Shown here: positions 1 to 6,113 of the stretch, piece after piece
How positions within the stretch are numbered: the stretch's first letter is position 1
Layout: every line of letters starts with the position of its first letter
Origin: Oscillospiraceae bacterium
GTDB lineage: Bacteria; Bacillota_A; Clostridia; Oscillospirales; Oscillospiraceae
Reading direction: 5' to 3'
Assembly (NCBI GenBank): GCA_016302015.1
Contig: JAEDOJ010000095.1
Coordinates: 1-6,113 of the forward strand
Length of the DNA: 6,113 nucleotides
Position numbers and translations under genes: made by a program
Notes under the pieces: model-generated
Database searches by the model: none
Told to the model about the DNA's origin: nothing
The model's input: only the letters and a program-made list of their open reading frames with translations

Positions 1-440
1 ATATCCGCTACGGTAGGCCGGAGGCCACCATGGAAGAGGTCATCGAGGCCGCCAAGCGGGCGGAAATTTACGAGGACATCATGGCCATGCCCGAGGGCTT
101 TGACACCTATGTGGGCGAGCGGGGCACGCTGTTGTCCGGCGGCCAGAAGCAGCGGGTCTCCATCGCCCGGATTTTCCTGAAAAATCCTCCCATCCTCATT
201 CTGGACGAAGCCACCAGCGCTTTGGACAGCGTGACCGAGGCGAAAATCCAGTCCGCCCTGGACGCTCTGGCGGTGGGGAGAACCACGCTGATCATTGCCC
301 ACCGCCTGTCCACCATCCGCAGCGCCCAGCGGATTTATGTGGTGGGAGAGGGCAGAATTCTGGAGGAGGGCACCCACGCCCAGCTCATGGAGCGAAACGG
401 CCTGTATGCCCGGCTTCGCAACACTCAGGCCGGGGTTTAG
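1..440 (+). CDS. ABC exporter, fused type, C-terminal part of ATPase domain (5' partial)
   Basis: This is the 3' end of an ATP-binding cassette gene; the reading frame is open to the left edge, so the ATG at 30 is internal and the gene starts outside the window. About 145 residues are visible. Seen: the ABC signature LSGGQKQR (codons from 132), Walker [13 protein letters not shown] (from 192) and the H-loop His in IIAHRLST (codon 300-302). The usual tail of an exporter ATPase follows, with a GRILEEGTH motif. Walker A and the membrane domain lie upstream and cannot be checked. Family knowledge: this pattern is typical of MsbA/MdlB-like (ABC-B) exporters with membrane and ATPase domains in one chain, working as homo- or heterodimers in the cytoplasmic membrane. 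The substrate cannot be inferred. The stop at 438-440 is one base before the next gene. Confidence 0.93.
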
Positions 441-1080: not shown

Positions 1081-1109
1081 TTGACAAATTAGTCTTTCGT
1101 TGTTACCAT
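1081..1109 (+). promoter_or_regulatory. Sigma-A-type promoter for the speA leader/operon
   Basis: A perfect -35 TTGACA (1081-1086) is followed after 17 bp by TACCAT (1104-1109), four of six matches to TATAAT. A TG at 1101-1102 forms an extended -10 that would compensate. Transcription would begin near 1116. A better-looking TACAAT at 1113-1118 lies 26 bp from the -35 and would lack a partner. No other promoter of similar quality is seen before speA. Confidence 0.65.
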
Positions 1110-1352
1110 AGTTACAATAGTTTTTTGATGGGTTCCTCAGAGCCGTCAATGCAATTATTCCGGACCACTCTTCGGAGTCAAGGCCATACGGACAGCCGGG
1201 TCCACTGCCGATTGGCAACCTTCGTTGCCCTATTGACTGGGCGTTCCGCTCAGATTTTATAAGTTGGTTTCTTAAAACCAGTTGGTTTCTCATAAACCGA
1301 ATGGCGCCTCGGCGCTGACTTGTGAAACGGTCAATATGAAGAGTAGTAAGTG

Positions 1353-1469
1353 ATGATTGCTGTGAAAGCTCTGACATTCCCCAGGGAGATATTCGTATCA
1401 CAAGACAGCGCGGAAAATTTTGCGCCGTCTTGTGTTTTTTTACGCACAGGAGAAAGAGTGGGAAGATGA
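1353..1469 (+). CDS. Possible 38-residue leader peptide overlapping the speA start
   Basis: An ATG at 1353 opens a 38-codon frame that runs through the terminator hairpin and its T-run. It stops with TGA at 1467-1469, which overlaps the speA ATG in an ATGA arrangement. The peptide starts MIAVKALTFPREIF and contains four Arg residues (11, 31, 35, 38), not clustered. There is no clear ribosome binding site; only AAGAGTAG lies upstream. A five-codon ATG frame (1336-1353) ends on the same base where this one starts. If translated, ribosomes would disrupt the terminator and could feed into speA, as in translation-dependent attenuation. That is inference: the frame could be chance, and I do not recognise the peptide. 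Confidence 0.3.
   Translation: MIAVKALTFPREIFVSQDSAENFAPSCVFLRTGERVGR
1399..1441 (+). terminator. Intrinsic terminator (attenuator) in the speA leader
   Basis: CACAAGAC (1399-1406) pairs with GTCTTGTG (1427-1434). After one A-C mismatch, GCGC (1408-1411) pairs with GCGC (1422-1425) around a 10-nt loop, and seven Ts follow at 1435-1441. It sits 24 nt before the speA ATG and inside the same transcription unit, so it makes most sense as a regulated stop. It could alternatively end an independent leader RNA or upstream transcription. Confidence 0.85.
1448..1452 (+). promoter_or_regulatory. speA ribosome binding site, unusually distant
   Basis: AGGAG lies 13 nt before the ATG at 1466, longer than the usual 5-9 nt and unlike the other genes of this operon. 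It follows the terminator T-run by six bases. The start is fixed by homology: an upstream TTG at 1430 would lie inside the terminator and add residues that B. subtilis SpeA lacks. Confidence 0.55.
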
Positions 1470-2917
1470 AATACAAATTCGACCAGAGCCGGGCGCCCAT
1501 CTACGAAGCCTTGGAGCGATTCCGTCAGATGCGGGTGGTGCCCTTTGACGTACCCGGCCACAAGCGGGGCCGGGGCAACCCTGAGCTGAGAGATTTTTTG
1601 GGTCAGCAGTGCATTGGCGTGGACGTGAACAGCATGAAGCCCCTGGACAACCTCTGCCATCCCATTTCCGTCATCCGGGAAGCGGAGGAGCTGGCCGCCG
1701 ACGCCTTCGGCGCGGCGCAGGCGTTTTTGATGGTGGGAGGAACCACCAGCGCCGTCCAGAGCATGATTCTCACCGCCTGCAAGCGGGGCGATGAGATTAT
1801 CCTGCCCCGAAACGTCCACCGGAGCGTGATCAACGCCCTGGTGCTCTGCGGCGCCATCCCCGTGTACGTCAATCCCGAGGTGGATCAGCGGCTGGGTATT
1901 TCTCTGGGCATGAAGCGGGAGCAGGTTGCCAAGGCCATTGCCGACCATCCCAACGCGGTGGCGGTGCTGGTGAACAATCCCACCTACTACGGCATTTGCT
2001 CCGACCTGAGAGCCATTGTGGATATGGCTCATAAGGCGGGGATGCTGTGCCTTGCGGACGAGGCCCACGGCACTCACTTCTACTTCGGCGCTGACCTGCC
2101 CATCTCCGCCATGGCGGCGGGAGCGGATATGGCGGCGGTTTCCATGCACAAAAGCGGCGGAAGCCTGACCCAGTCCAGCTTCCTCCTCTCCGGCCCCAAT
2201 GTCCATGCGGGCTATGTCCGCCAGATCATCAACCTGACCCAGACCACCTCCGGCAGTTATCTGCTCATGTCCAGTCTGGACATTTCCCGGCGGAATCTGG
2301 CCCTCCGGGGCAAGCAGGTCTTCGGTCACGTGCAGGAGCTGGCCTCCTACGCCAGAGAGGAGATCAATGCCATCGGAGATTACTACGCCTTCGGCAGAGA
2401 GCTGATGGACGGCAACGCCGTGTTTGATTTTGACTCCACCAAGCTCAGTATCCACACCCTGGACATCGGCCTGGCCGGTGTGGAGGTCTACGACACCCTC
2501 CGGGACGACTACGACATCCAGATTGAATTCGGTGATCTGGGCAACGTGCTGGCCTACCTGTCCATCGGCGACCGGATGCAGGAGCTGGAACGGCTGGTCA
2601 GCGCCCTGGCGGAGATCCGCCGCCGCTACCGCCGGTCTCCCGCAGGCATGCTGACCCAGGAATATATCGATCCCATTGTGGCGGCAAGCCCTCAGGAGGC
2701 CTTCTACGCGGAAAAAGTCAGCCTGCCTCTGGACGAGACGGAGGGGCGGGTCTGCAGTGAGTTTGTCATGTGCTATCCTCCCGGCATCCCCATCGTGGCC
2801 CCCGGCGAGCGGATCACCAAGGACATTCTTCAATATATTAAATACGCCCACGAAAAGGGCTGTCAGATGACCGGCCCCGAGGATCCGGACATCCGGTATC
2901 TGAACGTGCTGAAGTAA
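1466..2917 (+). CDS. speA: Arginine decarboxylase, PLP-dependent, Orn/Lys/Arg decarboxylase family
   Basis: A 483-residue cytoplasmic fold-type I PLP enzyme predicted to convert arginine to agmatine and CO2. Seen in order: PGHKRG (30-35), GGTTSA (91-96, phosphate-binding), NVHRS (116-120), NPTYYG (171-176), DEAHG (198-202, D198 for the PLP pyridine nitrogen) and SMHKSGGSLTQ with the Schiff-base lysine K229. A C-terminal CYPPGIPIVAPGE stretch follows. The length and motifs match the short form typified by B. subtilis SpeA (about 490 residues), without the N-terminal wing domain of the large E. coli enzymes. The family also includes lysine and ornithine decarboxylases, and sequence alone does not settle the substrate. 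The agmatinase two genes downstream argues for arginine. It is first in the operon, behind the attenuator leader; speE follows after 12 bases. Confidence 0.93.
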   Translation: MKYKFDQSRAPIYEALERFRQMRVVPFDVPGHKRGRGNPELRDFLGQQCIGVDVNSMKPLDNLCHPISVIREAEELAADAFGAAQAFLMVGGTTSAVQSMILTACKRGDEIILPRNVHRSVINALVLCGAIPVYVNPEVDQRLGISLGMKREQVAKAIADHPNAVAVLVNNPTYYGICSDLRAIVDMAHKAGMLCLADEAHGTHFYFGADLPISAMAAGADMAAVSMHKSGGSLTQSSFLLSGPNVHAGYVRQIINLTQTTSGSYLLMSSLDISRRNLALRGKQVFGHVQELASYAREEINAIGDYYAFGRELMDGNAVFDFDSTKLSIHTLDIGLAGVEVYDTLRDDYDIQIEFGDLGNVLAYLSIGDRMQELERLVSALAEIRRRYRRSPAGMLTQEYIDPIVAASPQEAFYAEKVSLPLDETEGRVCSEFVMCYPPGIPIVAPGERITKDILQYIKYAHEKGCQMTGPEDPDIRYLNVLK

Positions 2918-2929: not shown

Positions 2930-3787
2930 ATGGCATTTTGGTTCAGTGAGCATCACACGCCCGATGTGAAATTAAGTCTGCGGGTGCATCACCAGCTCTA
3001 TTCCGGGGACAGCGACTTCCAGCATATTGATCTGTTCGACACCCCGGAATTCGGCAAGGTGCTTGCCCTGGACGGGAACATCATGCTGACGGAGCGGGAC
3101 GAGTTCATCTATGACGAGATGATCACCCACGTTCCCATGTCCGTCCATCCCAACGTCACCACGGTGCTGGTCATCGGTGCCGGAGACGGAGGCGTTGTCC
3201 GGGAGCTGACAAGATACGATCAGGTTCGCCGCATCGATCTGGTGGAGATGGACCCCAAGGTTGTGGAGGTCTGCCGCCAGTATCTCCCCGGCAACGCCTG
3301 CCGGCTGGATGACAGCCGGGTGCATATCTACTATGAAAACGCCCTGAAATTCATCCGCCGCTGTGAAAATCTCTACGATTTGATCATTGTGGACTCCAAT
3401 GACCCCTTTGGCCCGGCGGAGGGTCTGTTTACCAGAGAATTTTACGGCATTTGCTACAACGCCCTGAAGGAAGACGGCATCATGGTCAATCAGCAGGGCA
3501 GTCCCTTCTACGCCGAGGATGCGGAGGCCATGAAGCGCAGTCATAAGCGCATCGCCACCACCTTCCCCATCTGCAAGGTCTATCAGGCGCATATTCCCAC
3601 CTATGCCGCAGGCTACTGGCTCTTTGGCTTTGCCAGCAAGCGGTATCATCCCGTGGTGGATAACGACGCCGCCCGGTGGGAGAAAAACAACCTCCGCACC
3701 CGGTATTACACCCCCAGACTCCATGTGGGCGCCTTCTACCTGCCCGCTTTTCTGGAGGAAATGCTCATGGAGGTGGAGCAATGCTGA
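2930..3787 (+). CDS. speE: Spermidine synthase family aminopropyltransferase
   Basis: A 285-residue protein of the spermidine synthase family, which moves the aminopropyl group of decarboxylated AdoMet to putrescine or a related amine. Seen: an N-terminal beta-strand domain; TERDEFIYDEM (54-64); the nucleotide loop IGAGDGG (82-88, usually GGGDGG); VEMD with E106; LDDSRV (126-131); the catalytic loop VDSNDPFGP with D155 and D158; and HIPTYAAGYW with Y225. The length is normal. Departures: YDEM where bacterial enzymes often have YHEM, and ENA (136-138) where the family has D-D-G/A, so the adenine-contacting Asp is Asn137. QQGSP (188-192) lacks an acidic residue, but E. coli SpeE has Gly there too. 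No speD is in the window. The substrate could be putrescine, agmatine or another amine. The last 7 bases overlap speB. Confidence 0.88.
   Translation: MAFWFSEHHTPDVKLSLRVHHQLYSGDSDFQHIDLFDTPEFGKVLALDGNIMLTERDEFIYDEMITHVPMSVHPNVTTVLVIGAGDGGVVRELTRYDQVRRIDLVEMDPKVVEVCRQYLPGNACRLDDSRVHIYYENALKFIRRCENLYDLIIVDSNDPFGPAEGLFTREFYGICYNALKEDGIMVNQQGSPFYAEDAEAMKRSHKRIATTFPICKVYQAHIPTYAAGYWLFGFASKRYHPVVDNDAARWEKNNLRTRYYTPRLHVGAFYLPAFLEEMLMEVEQC
3769..3773 (+). promoter_or_regulatory. speB ribosome binding site inside speE
   Basis: GGAGG, within the purine-rich GGAGGTGGAG, lies 7 nt before the ATG at 3781. It selects this start over in-frame codons further upstream (for example near 3676), which would add unrelated N-terminal residues. 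Confidence 0.75.
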
Positions 3788-4632
3788 AGCCCAATGTTGA
3801 GACCTTTATCGGCTGTGACGCCGGCTATGAGGAGGCCAAAATCGTTCTGTTTGGCGCACCCTTTGATTCCACCACCAGCTACCGCCCCGGCACCCGCTTC
3901 GGCCCCTCCGCCATGCGCCATGAAAGCTTCGGTCTGGAGACCTACAGCCCCTATCAGGATAAGGATCTGACGGATTACGCCGTGTTCGACAGCGGCGATC
4001 TGGAGCTGTGCTTCGGTTCTCAGGAGTCGGCGCTCCGGGACATCGAGGACAGAGCCGCCGCCATTTTGGAGGACGGGAAATTCCCCCTCCTGCTGGGGGG
4101 CGAGCATCTGGTGACCCTTGGATCGGTGCGGGCGGCGGTAAAAAAGTACCCCGATCTGCATATCATCCACTTTGACGCCCACGCAGACCTGCGGGACGAC
4201 TATCTGGGGGCAAAATTAAGCCACGCCTGTGTCCTGCGCCGGTGCCATGAGCTGGTGGGAGACGGAAGAATCCACCAGTTTTGTATCCGCTCCGGGGATC
4301 GGGAGGAGTTCCGCTTCGCCAAAGACCATACCGATCTGCACCCCTTTTCCTTTGAAGGCTTGAAGGAAACCGTGGAGGGCTTGAAGGACGTTCCGGTGTA
4401 TTTCACCATTGATCTGGACTGTCTCGATCCCGCCTGCTTCCCCGGCACCGGCACTCCCGAGGCCGGCGGCGTCACCTTCCCCCAGCTTCTGGAGGCCATA
4501 CGCACCGTGGCCGGGGCCAATGTGGTAGGCGCGGACGTGAACGAGCTGTCCCCCATGCTGGACGCCTCCGGGGCTTCCACCGCTCTGGCCTGCAAGGTTC
4601 TCCGGGAACTGCTGCTGGCTCTGTTATCGTGA
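3781..4632 (+). CDS. speB: Agmatinase (ureohydrolase/arginase family)
   Basis: A 283-residue cytoplasmic binuclear-manganese ureohydrolase predicted to split agmatine into putrescine and urea. All metal ligands are visible: H109 in LLGGEH; D132, H134 and D136 in FDAHADLR; and D211 and D213 in TIDLDCLDPA. The family signature continues with PGTGTPEAGG (221-230), and C-terminal GADVNELSP is typical. Sequence and length follow B. subtilis SpeB (290 residues), including SH after the second motif and CIRSG near 168-172. The gene starts inside the last codons of speE (7-base overlap), a speE-speB order also found in B. subtilis. The next gene follows after 25 bases. An alternative substrate is aminopropylagmatine or carboxyaminopropylagmatine, used by ureohydrolases of some spermidine routes; sequence alone does not decide. 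Confidence 0.93.
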   Translation: MLKPNVETFIGCDAGYEEAKIVLFGAPFDSTTSYRPGTRFGPSAMRHESFGLETYSPYQDKDLTDYAVFDSGDLELCFGSQESALRDIEDRAAAILEDGKFPLLLGGEHLVTLGSVRAAVKKYPDLHIIHFDAHADLRDDYLGAKLSHACVLRRCHELVGDGRIHQFCIRSGDREEFRFAKDHTDLHPFSFEGLKETVEGLKDVPVYFTIDLDCLDPACFPGTGTPEAGGVTFPQLLEAIRTVAGANVVGADVNELSPMLDASGASTALACKVLRELLLALLS

Positions 4633-4657: not shown

Positions 4658-5917
4658 ATGAGTAGAGTTTTAATCATCGGCTGCGGCGGCGTGGCCTCCG
4701 TGGCAATCCAGAAGTGCTGTCAGGTCAGCGAGGTCTTCACCGAAATCTGTATCGCCAGCCGCACCAAGTCCAAGTGCGACGCTCTGGCGGAAAAGTTAGC
4801 CCCCACTACCGCCACCAAAATCACCACCGCACAGGTGGACGCGGACAAGGTGGAGGAGGTCATCGCCCTGATCAAGTCCTACCAGCCGGAGCTGGTCATG
4901 AACATTGCCCTGCCCTATCAGGATCTGACCATTATGGACGCCTGCCTTGCCTGCGGCGTGAACTATATGGACACCGCCAACTACGAGCCGGAGAATATCG
5001 ACGATCCCCAGTGGCGGGCGGTCTATGAAAAGCGGTGCAAGGAAGCGGGCTTCTCCGCGTATTTTGACTATTCCTGGCAGTGGGCCTATGAGGAAAAGTT
5101 CAAGGAGGCCGGACTGACGGCGCTTCTCGGCTCCGGCTTTGACCCCGGCGTGACCCAGGCCTACTGCGCCTACGCCAAGAAGCATATCTTCGACACCATC
5201 GACACCATCGACATTCTGGACTGCAACGGCGGCGACCATGGCTATCCCTTCGCCACCAACTTCAACCCGGAAATCAACCTCCGGGAGGTCTCCGCTCCCG
5301 GCAGCTATTGGGAGGACGGGCATTGGGTGGAAATCCCCGCCATGTCCATTAAGAGAGAGTACAACTTCGATCAGGTGGGACAGAAGGATATGTACCTCCT
5401 GCACCATGAGGAGATCGAGTCTCTGGCGAAGAACATCCCCGAGGCAAAGCGGATTCGCTTCTTCATGACCTTCGGCCAGTCCTACCTGACCCATATGAAC
5501 TGTCTGGAAAATGTTGGAATGCTGTCCACCACGCCCATTGAATATGAAGGCCAGCAGATCGTTCCCATTCAGTTCCTGAAGGCGCTCCTGCCCGATCCCG
5601 CCAGCCTTGGCCCCCGTACCGTGGGCAAGACCAACATCGGCTGCATCTTCACCGGCACCAAGGACGGCAAGCCCAGAACCTACTATATTTATAATGTATG
5701 CGACCATCAGGAGTGCTACCGTGAGGTAGGCTCTCAGGCCATTTCCTATACCACCGGCGTTCCCGCCATGTGCGGCGCCCTGATGATGCTCACAGGCAAG
5801 TGGACGGAGCCGGGGGTGCATACCGTAGAGGAGTTCGATCCCGATCCCTATCTGGACGCTCTGGATCAGTACGGTCTGCCTCGCAGTGAGAGCTTCCAGC
5901 CGGTTCTGGTGGACTGA
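4658..5917 (+). CDS. Carboxy(nor)spermidine dehydrogenase-like, saccharopine dehydrogenase family
   Basis: A 419-residue NAD(P)H-dependent oxidoreductase. Seen: an N-terminal Rossmann loop VLIIGCGGVASVA (4-16); IASRTKSKCDAL (32-43), where R35 and K37 would suit NADPH; a second-strand MNIALPYQDL (81-90); GVNYMDTANYEP (100-111); and LLGSGFDPGVTQAY (156-169). A long C-terminal catalytic domain includes CNGGDHGYPFATNFNPE. These match carboxynorspermidine/carboxyspermidine dehydrogenase (CASDH), which joins L-aspartate semialdehyde to putrescine or diaminopropane and reduces the imine. The next gene encodes the matching decarboxylase, which supports this over saccharopine dehydrogenase of lysine metabolism. 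An acceptor of agmatine (carboxyaminopropylagmatine dehydrogenase) is also possible. AAGGAG (4645-4650) lies 7 nt before the ATG. The stop shares one base with the next start. Confidence 0.88.
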   Translation: MSRVLIIGCGGVASVAIQKCCQVSEVFTEICIASRTKSKCDALAEKLAPTTATKITTAQVDADKVEEVIALIKSYQPELVMNIALPYQDLTIMDACLACGVNYMDTANYEPENIDDPQWRAVYEKRCKEAGFSAYFDYSWQWAYEEKFKEAGLTALLGSGFDPGVTQAYCAYAKKHIFDTIDTIDILDCNGGDHGYPFATNFNPEINLREVSAPGSYWEDGHWVEIPAMSIKREYNFDQVGQKDMYLLHHEEIESLAKNIPEAKRIRFFMTFGQSYLTHMNCLENVGMLSTTPIEYEGQQIVPIQFLKALLPDPASLGPRTVGKTNIGCIFTGTKDGKPRTYYIYNVCDHQECYREVGSQAISYTTGVPAMCGALMMLTGKWTEPGVHTVEEFDPDPYLDALDQYGLPRSESFQPVLVD

Positions 5918-6113
5918 TGACAAAATGTAAAGACAGCCGCCCGCCCTTTGGGGGGCTGGCGGCCTATGAGATCCCGGCACAGTTCAGGGAGCTTCCCACC
6001 CCCTGTTATGTGATCGATCAGGGGATGCTGCGGAAAAACGGCGAATTATTGCTGGGAGTTCAGCAGCGGACGGGGTGTAAGATTCTGCTGGCCCAGAAGG
6101 CCTTTTCCAATTT
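5917..6113 (+). CDS. nspC: Carboxynorspermidine/carboxyspermidine decarboxylase, N-terminus (3' partial)
   Basis: Sixty-five codons are visible before the window ends. The protein has a short variable N-terminus, then ELPTPCYVIDQGMLRKN (25-41) and TGCKILLAQKAFSN (52-65). This matches the opening of fold-type III (alanine-racemase-like) PLP decarboxylases of the carboxynorspermidine type, where the lysine of the LALKxF motif holds PLP; here it is K61 in LAQKAF. It would remove the carboxyl group left by the preceding dehydrogenase, giving spermidine (or norspermidine). The ATG at 5917 overlaps the stop of the upstream gene by one base (TGATG) with no strong ribosome binding site, so translation is probably coupled. 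Substrate residues in the C-terminal part are not visible, so the exact substrate is open. Confidence 0.85.
   Translation, partial: MTKCKDSRPPFGGLAAYEIPAQFRELPTPCYVIDQGMLRKNGELLLGVQQRTGCKILLAQKAFSN

Follow-up and report, generated by a model that had tools for sequence, protein, structure and literature searches.

The locus studied here raises the question of what decides, in the stretch before the first gene, whether polymerase enters an operon of polyamine genes. The window, that is, the whole 6,113-nucleotide stretch of Oscillospiraceae DNA that we analysed (contig JAEDOJ010000095.1), carries the order speA-speE-speB-CASDH-nspC behind this leader, as read from an NCBIfam profile search of the window:

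1466..2917, + strand: speA, first gene of the operon, Orn/Lys/Arg decarboxylase family; partial profile matches only, all under the curated cut-offs (among them LdcC with 77.1 bits)
2930..3787, + strand: speE, polyamine aminopropyltransferase (NF002010, 368.9 bits, cut-off 260)
3781..4632, + strand: speB, agmatinase (TIGR01230, 282.6 bits, cut-off 174.3)
4658..5917, + strand: CASDH, carboxynorspermidine/carboxyspermidine synthase (NF043000, 403.3 bits, under its cut-off of 800)
5917..6111, + strand: start of nspC, carboxynorspermidine decarboxylase, truncated by the window end (TIGR01047, 31.4 bits over 39 residues, under the cut-off)

The nearest relatives of this SpeA (88% and 87% identity) belong to Oscillospiraceae-type MAGs. 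Its specificity is predicted to be for arginine from its homologue SP_0916, which the sections consulted of PMC7531197 describe as an arginine decarboxylase. According to excerpts of PMC10413350 and general knowledge, SpeA yields agmatine toward putrescine, SpeD supplies the aminopropyl donor, and CASDH with nspC forms the other route from putrescine to spermidine. No regulator gene was seen among the open reading frames or profile matches of the window. Farther upstream, a small ORF at 442-687 gave no NCBIfam match at 1e-3; we take it to resemble a GIY-YIG nuclease domain protein. The intergenic region 720-960 contains palindromic GAGGGAG/CTCCCTC repeats, one 18-base unit of which was absent from all 126 loci compared, and the Rfam search of the window placed a below-threshold whalefall-1 match at 748-816 on the minus strand.

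An earlier note on this DNA had proposed a terminator/antiterminator switch directly before speA. The terminator lies exactly where that note placed it, with the hairpin at 1399-1434, the T7 run at 1435-1441 and a gap of 24 nt (1442-1465) to the ATG at 1466. The complementarity of CTTGTGA (1319-1325) to TCACAAG (1398-1404) was equally exact. The extension to nine positions had the A-A mismatch (1318/1405) right and understated the length: the pairing really joins 1312-1325 with 1398-1411, with 13 standard pairs in 14 positions. The elements of the switch are as follows:

1312..1325, + strand: switch strand GCGCTGACTTGTGA, which can serve as the 3' strand of P6/P8 or as the 5' strand of the antiterminator
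1398..1411, + strand: antiterminator 3' strand TCACAAGACAGCGC, identical with the terminator 5' arm; 14-position pairing with the switch strand
1399..1441, + strand: intrinsic terminator, hairpin CACAAGACAGCGCGGAAAATTTTGCGCCGTCTTGTG at 1399-1434 and T7 at 1435-1441

The best duplex between the terminator 5' arm and the leader had an energy of -24.9 kcal/mol and ended at 1326, and none of 1000 dinucleotide shuffles of the leader reached it (mean -14.4, best -24.7 kcal/mol); the terminator hairpin alone gave -20.8 kcal/mol. A bare 7-mer match is weak evidence, and the 14-position pairing together with its conservation in relatives is strong evidence. When the whole leader of the window was folded with Vienna, P6 was formed in the minimum-energy structure, and the state with P6 and the terminator (-121.9 kcal/mol) was far more stable than that with the antiterminator (-102.6 kcal/mol), so that read-through would need kinetic control or a fold outside the model; energy models are unreliable for an RNA so large, and such energies are no demonstration of regulation. 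At 1411-1425, before the terminator completes, the antiterminator was 6.7 to 11.7 kcal/mol behind in the Vienna folds. In the segment 1240-1420 alone the antiterminator was the minimum-energy fold, whereas P6 won in the whole leader, a reversal that fits an upstream fold that would tip the balance.

The leader before speA is a large structured RNA of about 260 to 330 nt (about 1116-1441), and the terminator/antiterminator is its expression platform. The earlier note missed this conserved RNA, the 14-position length of the pairing, and the competition of P6 and P8 for the switch strand. Judged from its putative promoter, transcription would start near 1116. The conserved stretches follow one another as 5' hairpin region, P2, P3, P4, P5, P6, P7, P8, P9 and then the P1 3' strand. 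The parts are listed below; percentages are cells paired in the structure drawn for 50 sequences:

1081..1109, + strand: putative promoter read from the sequence, -35 TTGACA (1081-1086), 17-nt spacer, -10 TACCAT (1104-1109)
1137..1143, + strand: P1 5' strand TCAGAGC, which closes the RNA by pairing with 1368-1374; 88.5% of cells paired, double-sided changes in 2 of 7 pairs
1162..1211, + strand: 5' domain, matching Rfam RF02440 (SpF59_sRNA / ldcC RNA) with 67.9 bits (gathering 37.2, E 4.2e-11)
1162-1166 with 1199-1203, + strand: P2, inside the RF02440 5' domain
1182-1202, + strand: near-invariant core GGCCATACGGACAGCCGGGTC, inside the 5' domain; found with <=3 mismatches upstream of speA in 61/80 loci
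1214-1219 with 1224-1229, + strand: P3 hairpin GGCAAC/GTTGCC; double-sided changes in 5 of 6 pairs
1231..1238, + strand: P4 5' strand TATTGACT, pairs with 1329-1336; 99.8% of cells paired, zero double changes
1239-1242 with 1248-1251, + strand: P5 hairpin; 99.5% of cells paired, double-sided change in 1 of 4 pairs
1256..1265, + strand: P6 5' strand TTTATAAGTT, pairs with 1317-1326 and so sequesters the switch strand (anti-antiterminator); 98.6% of cells paired
1303-1308 with 1311-1316, + strand: P8 hairpin GGCGCC/GGCGCT, its 3' arm shared with the antiterminator strand
1329..1336, + strand: P4 3' strand GGTCAATA, from the 50-sequence structure
1344-1349 with 1357-1362, + strand: P9 hairpin TAGTAA/TTGCTG; 98.0% of cells paired
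1368..1374, + strand: P1 3' strand GCTCTGA, from the 50-sequence structure

RF02440 was the sole Rfam family above its cut-off in the window; whalefall-1 and sR24 matched more weakly, below theirs. By eye, the P1 3' strand (1368-1374) can also pair locally with GAGT in the 1341-1344 region. P1 and this local 3' hairpin (1137-1143, 1342-1346, 1368-1374) may form a second pair of exclusive helices.

The fold is conserved by compensatory change. RNAalifold on 50 leaders returned 51 pairs, 14 of them with compensatory double changes. A 63-pair structure, which was drawn by hand from leader L036 together with the RNAalifold output for this alignment and is therefore biased toward it, was paired in 95.3% of cells of the 50 sequences, with double changes in 17 pairs. 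Its covariation (0.148 vs 0.094 in shuffled alignments) was reached by 0/500 shuffles, and pairing fell to 29.5-45.5% when the partners were slid by 1 to 3 columns. P6 itself varied only by one-sided G-U changes, with zero double changes, and P8 was poorly aligned (outer pairs 80.2% paired, the two inner ones 36-47%). At switch position -3 (T1316 of the window), the base was able to pair with its partner in P8 as well as with its partner in the terminator arm in 36/49 sequences: an A had U as either partner in 26, and a T had A or G as either partner in 10. Covariation of one strand with two partners whose helices exclude each other, as these alignments suggest, is the signature of a switch.

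A hairpin with a T run between the RNA and speA was found by script in 60/62 leaders; of the two terminators that the script missed, that of L002 was visible by eye and that of L039 was found later, in the 20-leader scoring. The terminator was present in all 41 scored gene-blind loci. In 61 leaders, the duplex of switch strand and terminator 5' arm averaged -15.5 kcal/mol, compared with -6.4 for shuffled arms and -6.7 for random windows, and the terminator 3' arm was intermediate between real and shuffled arms at -9.8 kcal/mol. Against mononucleotide shuffles, p<=0.05 was obtained in 56/61 of these leaders, in 19/20 leaders not used before and in 39/41 gene-blind loci, and p<=0.01 in 46/61, 12/20 and 34/41, respectively. 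Pooled, with L081 (scored in both smaller sets) counted once and the four loci with a variant switch strand (L123-L126) as well as L127-L138 left out of scoring, the antiterminator duplex reached p<=0.05 in 112/120 distinct leaders; these relatives are not independent, several leaders being near-identical (six such pairs). The eight failures were L003, L006, L023, L031 and L047 in the 61-set, L010 in the 20-set, and L098 and L120 in the 41-set. L010 was counted as failed (p 0.92) after the script had taken the wrong hairpin; the right one, chosen by hand and uncounted, gave -18.4 kcal/mol and p 0.002.

The terminator arm moreover tracks the switch strand of its own leader. Among 98 unique switch-strand/terminator-arm pairs (pooled from all 61 and 41 rows and 14 of the 20, leaving out the near-copies L065, L032, L050 and L038, along with L010 and L081, the latter already in the 41), matched partners averaged -15.1 vs -11.8 kcal/mol for swapped ones, a mean that 0/5000 permutations reached; in a separate swap test matched partners also beat swapped ones (0/2000). 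The pairs at position -3 were A-T in 43, C-G in 16, T-A in 15 and T-G in 1, with 23 unpaired; at position -5 they were G-C in 40, A-T in 22, G-T in 21, C-G in 4, T-G in 3 and T-A in 1, with 7 unpaired. The switch proposed in the earlier note is thus supported by the covariation check in relatives that it had called for.

We then consider where the RNA occurs. It precedes speA in 79/80 loci, in 61/80 by the core and switch strand and in 18 of the other 19 by a covariance model built from 37 leaders. The exception, L037 (2300-2500), has speA, a promoter-like site and a short hairpin but lacks the RNA, a natural loss. A promoter-like TTGAC-16..19-TAnnnT/TGnnnT lay within 120 nt before the core in 55/62 leaders (window counted) vs 2/62 shuffled ones. 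A gene-blind search with the covariance model matched 20/398 genomes from the phylum of G001, 27/299 from the class of G339 (presumably Bacilli; three repeat the phylum draw) and 12/150 from the class of G002 (the genome that contains L007, the Acidaminococcus locus), with one match per matching genome. The resulting 56 loci, minus four repeats of the speA set (L083=L013, L127=L017, L129=L070, L133=L007), left 52 new loci, every one of them before a polyamine gene: CASDH in 26, speA in 20 and speD in 6, the last with TIGR03331 above its cut-off. These contexts come from tblastn with polyamine proteins only, and small ORFs may lie between RNA and gene. RF02440 itself matched in 18/20 loci of the phylum draw and, among 14 named control genomes, in Lactococcus lactis only. 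Many gut and soil bacteria have the RNA, with Faecalibacterium and Gemmiger, by record titles, among the gut genera. In Paenibacillus cellulosilyticus it stands before CASDH and nspC. The idea of a phage or plasmid element was rejected: the exact core was absent from viral_contigs, and that of Paenibacillus cellulosilyticus was the one plasmid-collection record. Copies of Clostridiales-1 RNA were seen near some speA loci (L042 5182-5531, two in tandem; L050 5220-5390; L059 783-949; L065 634-796).

The two domains of the RNA are unequally constant. None of the 18 divergent speA leaders matched RF02440 at the gathering score, though the 3' part, switch strand included, is present in 18/18. By eye, the RF02440 core was absent in 12 of them (L026, L032, L038, L042, L043, L045, L046, L050, L059, L062, L063 and L065), all of which retain the 3' domain, switch strand and terminator. 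It was variant in five (L030, L061, L068, L072 and L075), and L010 is cut by a contig end. The 5' domain is therefore not needed for switching everywhere, and the Rfam piece is less constant than the 3' part, which is then the candidate for the sensor, or at a minimum for the switch. L061, L068, L072 and L075 have a core of the GGACGGACAGCCGGGGCC type, in which the usual AAGGCCATA before CGGACAGCCG is replaced, and L030 is more degenerate; the variant 5' domains of the former four possibly have altered specificity. L123-L126 (1501-1691), which also lie before speA, have a CATCTTGTG switch strand, a long P7 and a different 3' part.

A terminator between the promoter and the first gene, together with a conserved alternative pairing that would block it, makes a transcription attenuator, and the leader very probably has this architecture. 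When the switch strand (1312-1326) pairs with P6 and P8, the terminator 5' arm would be free, the terminator would form and transcription would stop near 1441; when it pairs with the terminator 5' arm instead, the terminator would be blocked and polymerase would read into speA-speE-speB-CASDH-nspC. The conserved upstream part would act as the ligand sensor, and ligand binding would hold P6 closed, turning the operon off as feedback. As expected of a metabolite-binding riboswitch, the fold is conserved and covarying and lies upstream of genes with linked functions. The earlier note was right to treat the signal as inference. We propose spermidine or a close triamine as the ligand because the RNA precedes three alternative gene sets whose common product is spermidine. 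On balance, we favour a direct ligand-binding feedback 'off' riboswitch that would respond to spermidine or a close relative, with reasonable rather than high confidence.

The attenuator may be real and answer to another signal, such as arginine, agmatine, putrescine or ions, or may be an 'on' switch driven by substrate. With speA first in 20/52 gene-blind loci, a substrate or product of SpeA is a possible signal, and the 'off' direction rests only on P6 belonging to the conserved fold. Against this, 26/52 loci start with CASDH and 6 with speD, neither of which uses arginine or makes agmatine, and we regard another signal as unlikely, though still to be reckoned with. A protein could also read the leader, as an RNA-binding antiterminator or repressor, and conserved single-stranded stretches in so large a leader are a conceivable protein site. 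Near-invariant unpaired bases within a multi-helix fold, as found here, are typical of aptamers, and the window holds no visible regulator gene; a protein reader thus appears distinctly improbable.

Two further readings would leave the switch out altogether. The Rfam type of RF02440 (Gene; sRNA) and the cataloguing of pneumococcal F59/srn235 as an sRNA in the portions seen of PMC3395615 and PMC12323649 speak for a trans-acting sRNA with an ordinary terminator, but all 52 gene-blind loci place the RNA before and in line with a polyamine gene, and its terminator arm changes in step with the switch strand, a behaviour not required of a plain terminator; we consider this reading very improbable. 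As for chance complementarity beside a constitutive terminator, a lone 7-mer is not rare, but with 0/1000 leader shuffles reaching the observed duplex and 112/120 relatives having one, chance is scarcely credible. The spermidine-responsive 'off' riboswitch remains our preferred reading.

Other kinds of leader were considered and set aside. No conserved short ORF for a leader peptide was apparent: relatives do not, by eye, preserve the frames near 1337-1360, while the base pairs are preserved. Up to E=1, the Rfam search of the window gave no T-box and no SAM family, and both a T-box leader and a SAM-I-variant spermidine riboswitch were rejected.

Taken together, the comparisons allow a broader proposal, to which we give slightly less than an even chance: that the RNA would be a second class of spermidine-type riboswitch, unrelated to the known one and much more widespread, with a 3' switching and sensing domain kept in all 79 RNA-bearing speA leaders and, separable from it, a near-invariant 5' domain that corresponds to the Rfam piece, is lost or altered in some lineages and may be a second sensor. 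It would govern all three spermidine gene sets of Bacillota, among them that of the carboxyspermidine route, which is common in gut bacteria. If true, RF02440, now entered in Rfam as a short sRNA, would be a fragment of a widely distributed cis-regulatory RNA, one that links three routes to spermidine, those by way of arginine, S-adenosylmethionine and carboxyspermidine. A full-text literature search that included the retrieved parts of PMC11109978, PMC6429828 and PMC8632094, and lay outside the 2017 survey of 224 candidate RNAs, found no description of the switch; an earlier report, hinted at by the alias 'ldcC RNA', is possible.

Among the closest known systems, RF02440 matches 1162-1211 of the window directly and above gathering; the Rfam model, however, is 54 nt long and has the type of an sRNA gene, whereas the RNA of the window has about 260 nt plus a terminator and is cis-acting by its layout. 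The pneumococcal F59/srn235/SN20 sits between SP0915 and SP0916, as given in the extracts seen of PMC3395615 and PMC12323649, and an insertion fitness of 0.05 in mouse lung is listed for srn235/SN20 in those of PMC3395615. If that RNA is a leader, such insertions could take effect through speA in cis, and this 'sRNA' would be worth a second look. The Salmonella speF leader (PMC6386406) is likewise an RNA leader controlling polyamine synthesis, but it is described as the leader of an ornithine decarboxylase in an enterobacterium, with conformations that depend on arginine. The odc1 and potE motifs (passages of PMC8632094) are also candidate RNA regulators adjoining polyamine genes; odc1, from alpha-proteobacteria, is a short hairpin that has an ORF upstream, and potE is described there from Veillonella and metagenomes only, with no obvious expression platform. 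According to the text available of PMC10853860, the claim of a natural polyamine riboswitch was long disputed, and the accepted class is a rare SAM-I variant, 'off' with spermidine, whose tested example lies before an ldcC gene. That riboswitch shares with the RNA of the window the pathway and an antiterminator that occludes the left shoulder of the terminator, but it is built on the SAM-I aptamer, and the conserved sequences differ. If our reading is true, the RNA before speA is a polyamine riboswitch candidate unrelated to the SAM-I variant and commoner than it, present in gut genera such as Faecalibacterium and Gemmiger.
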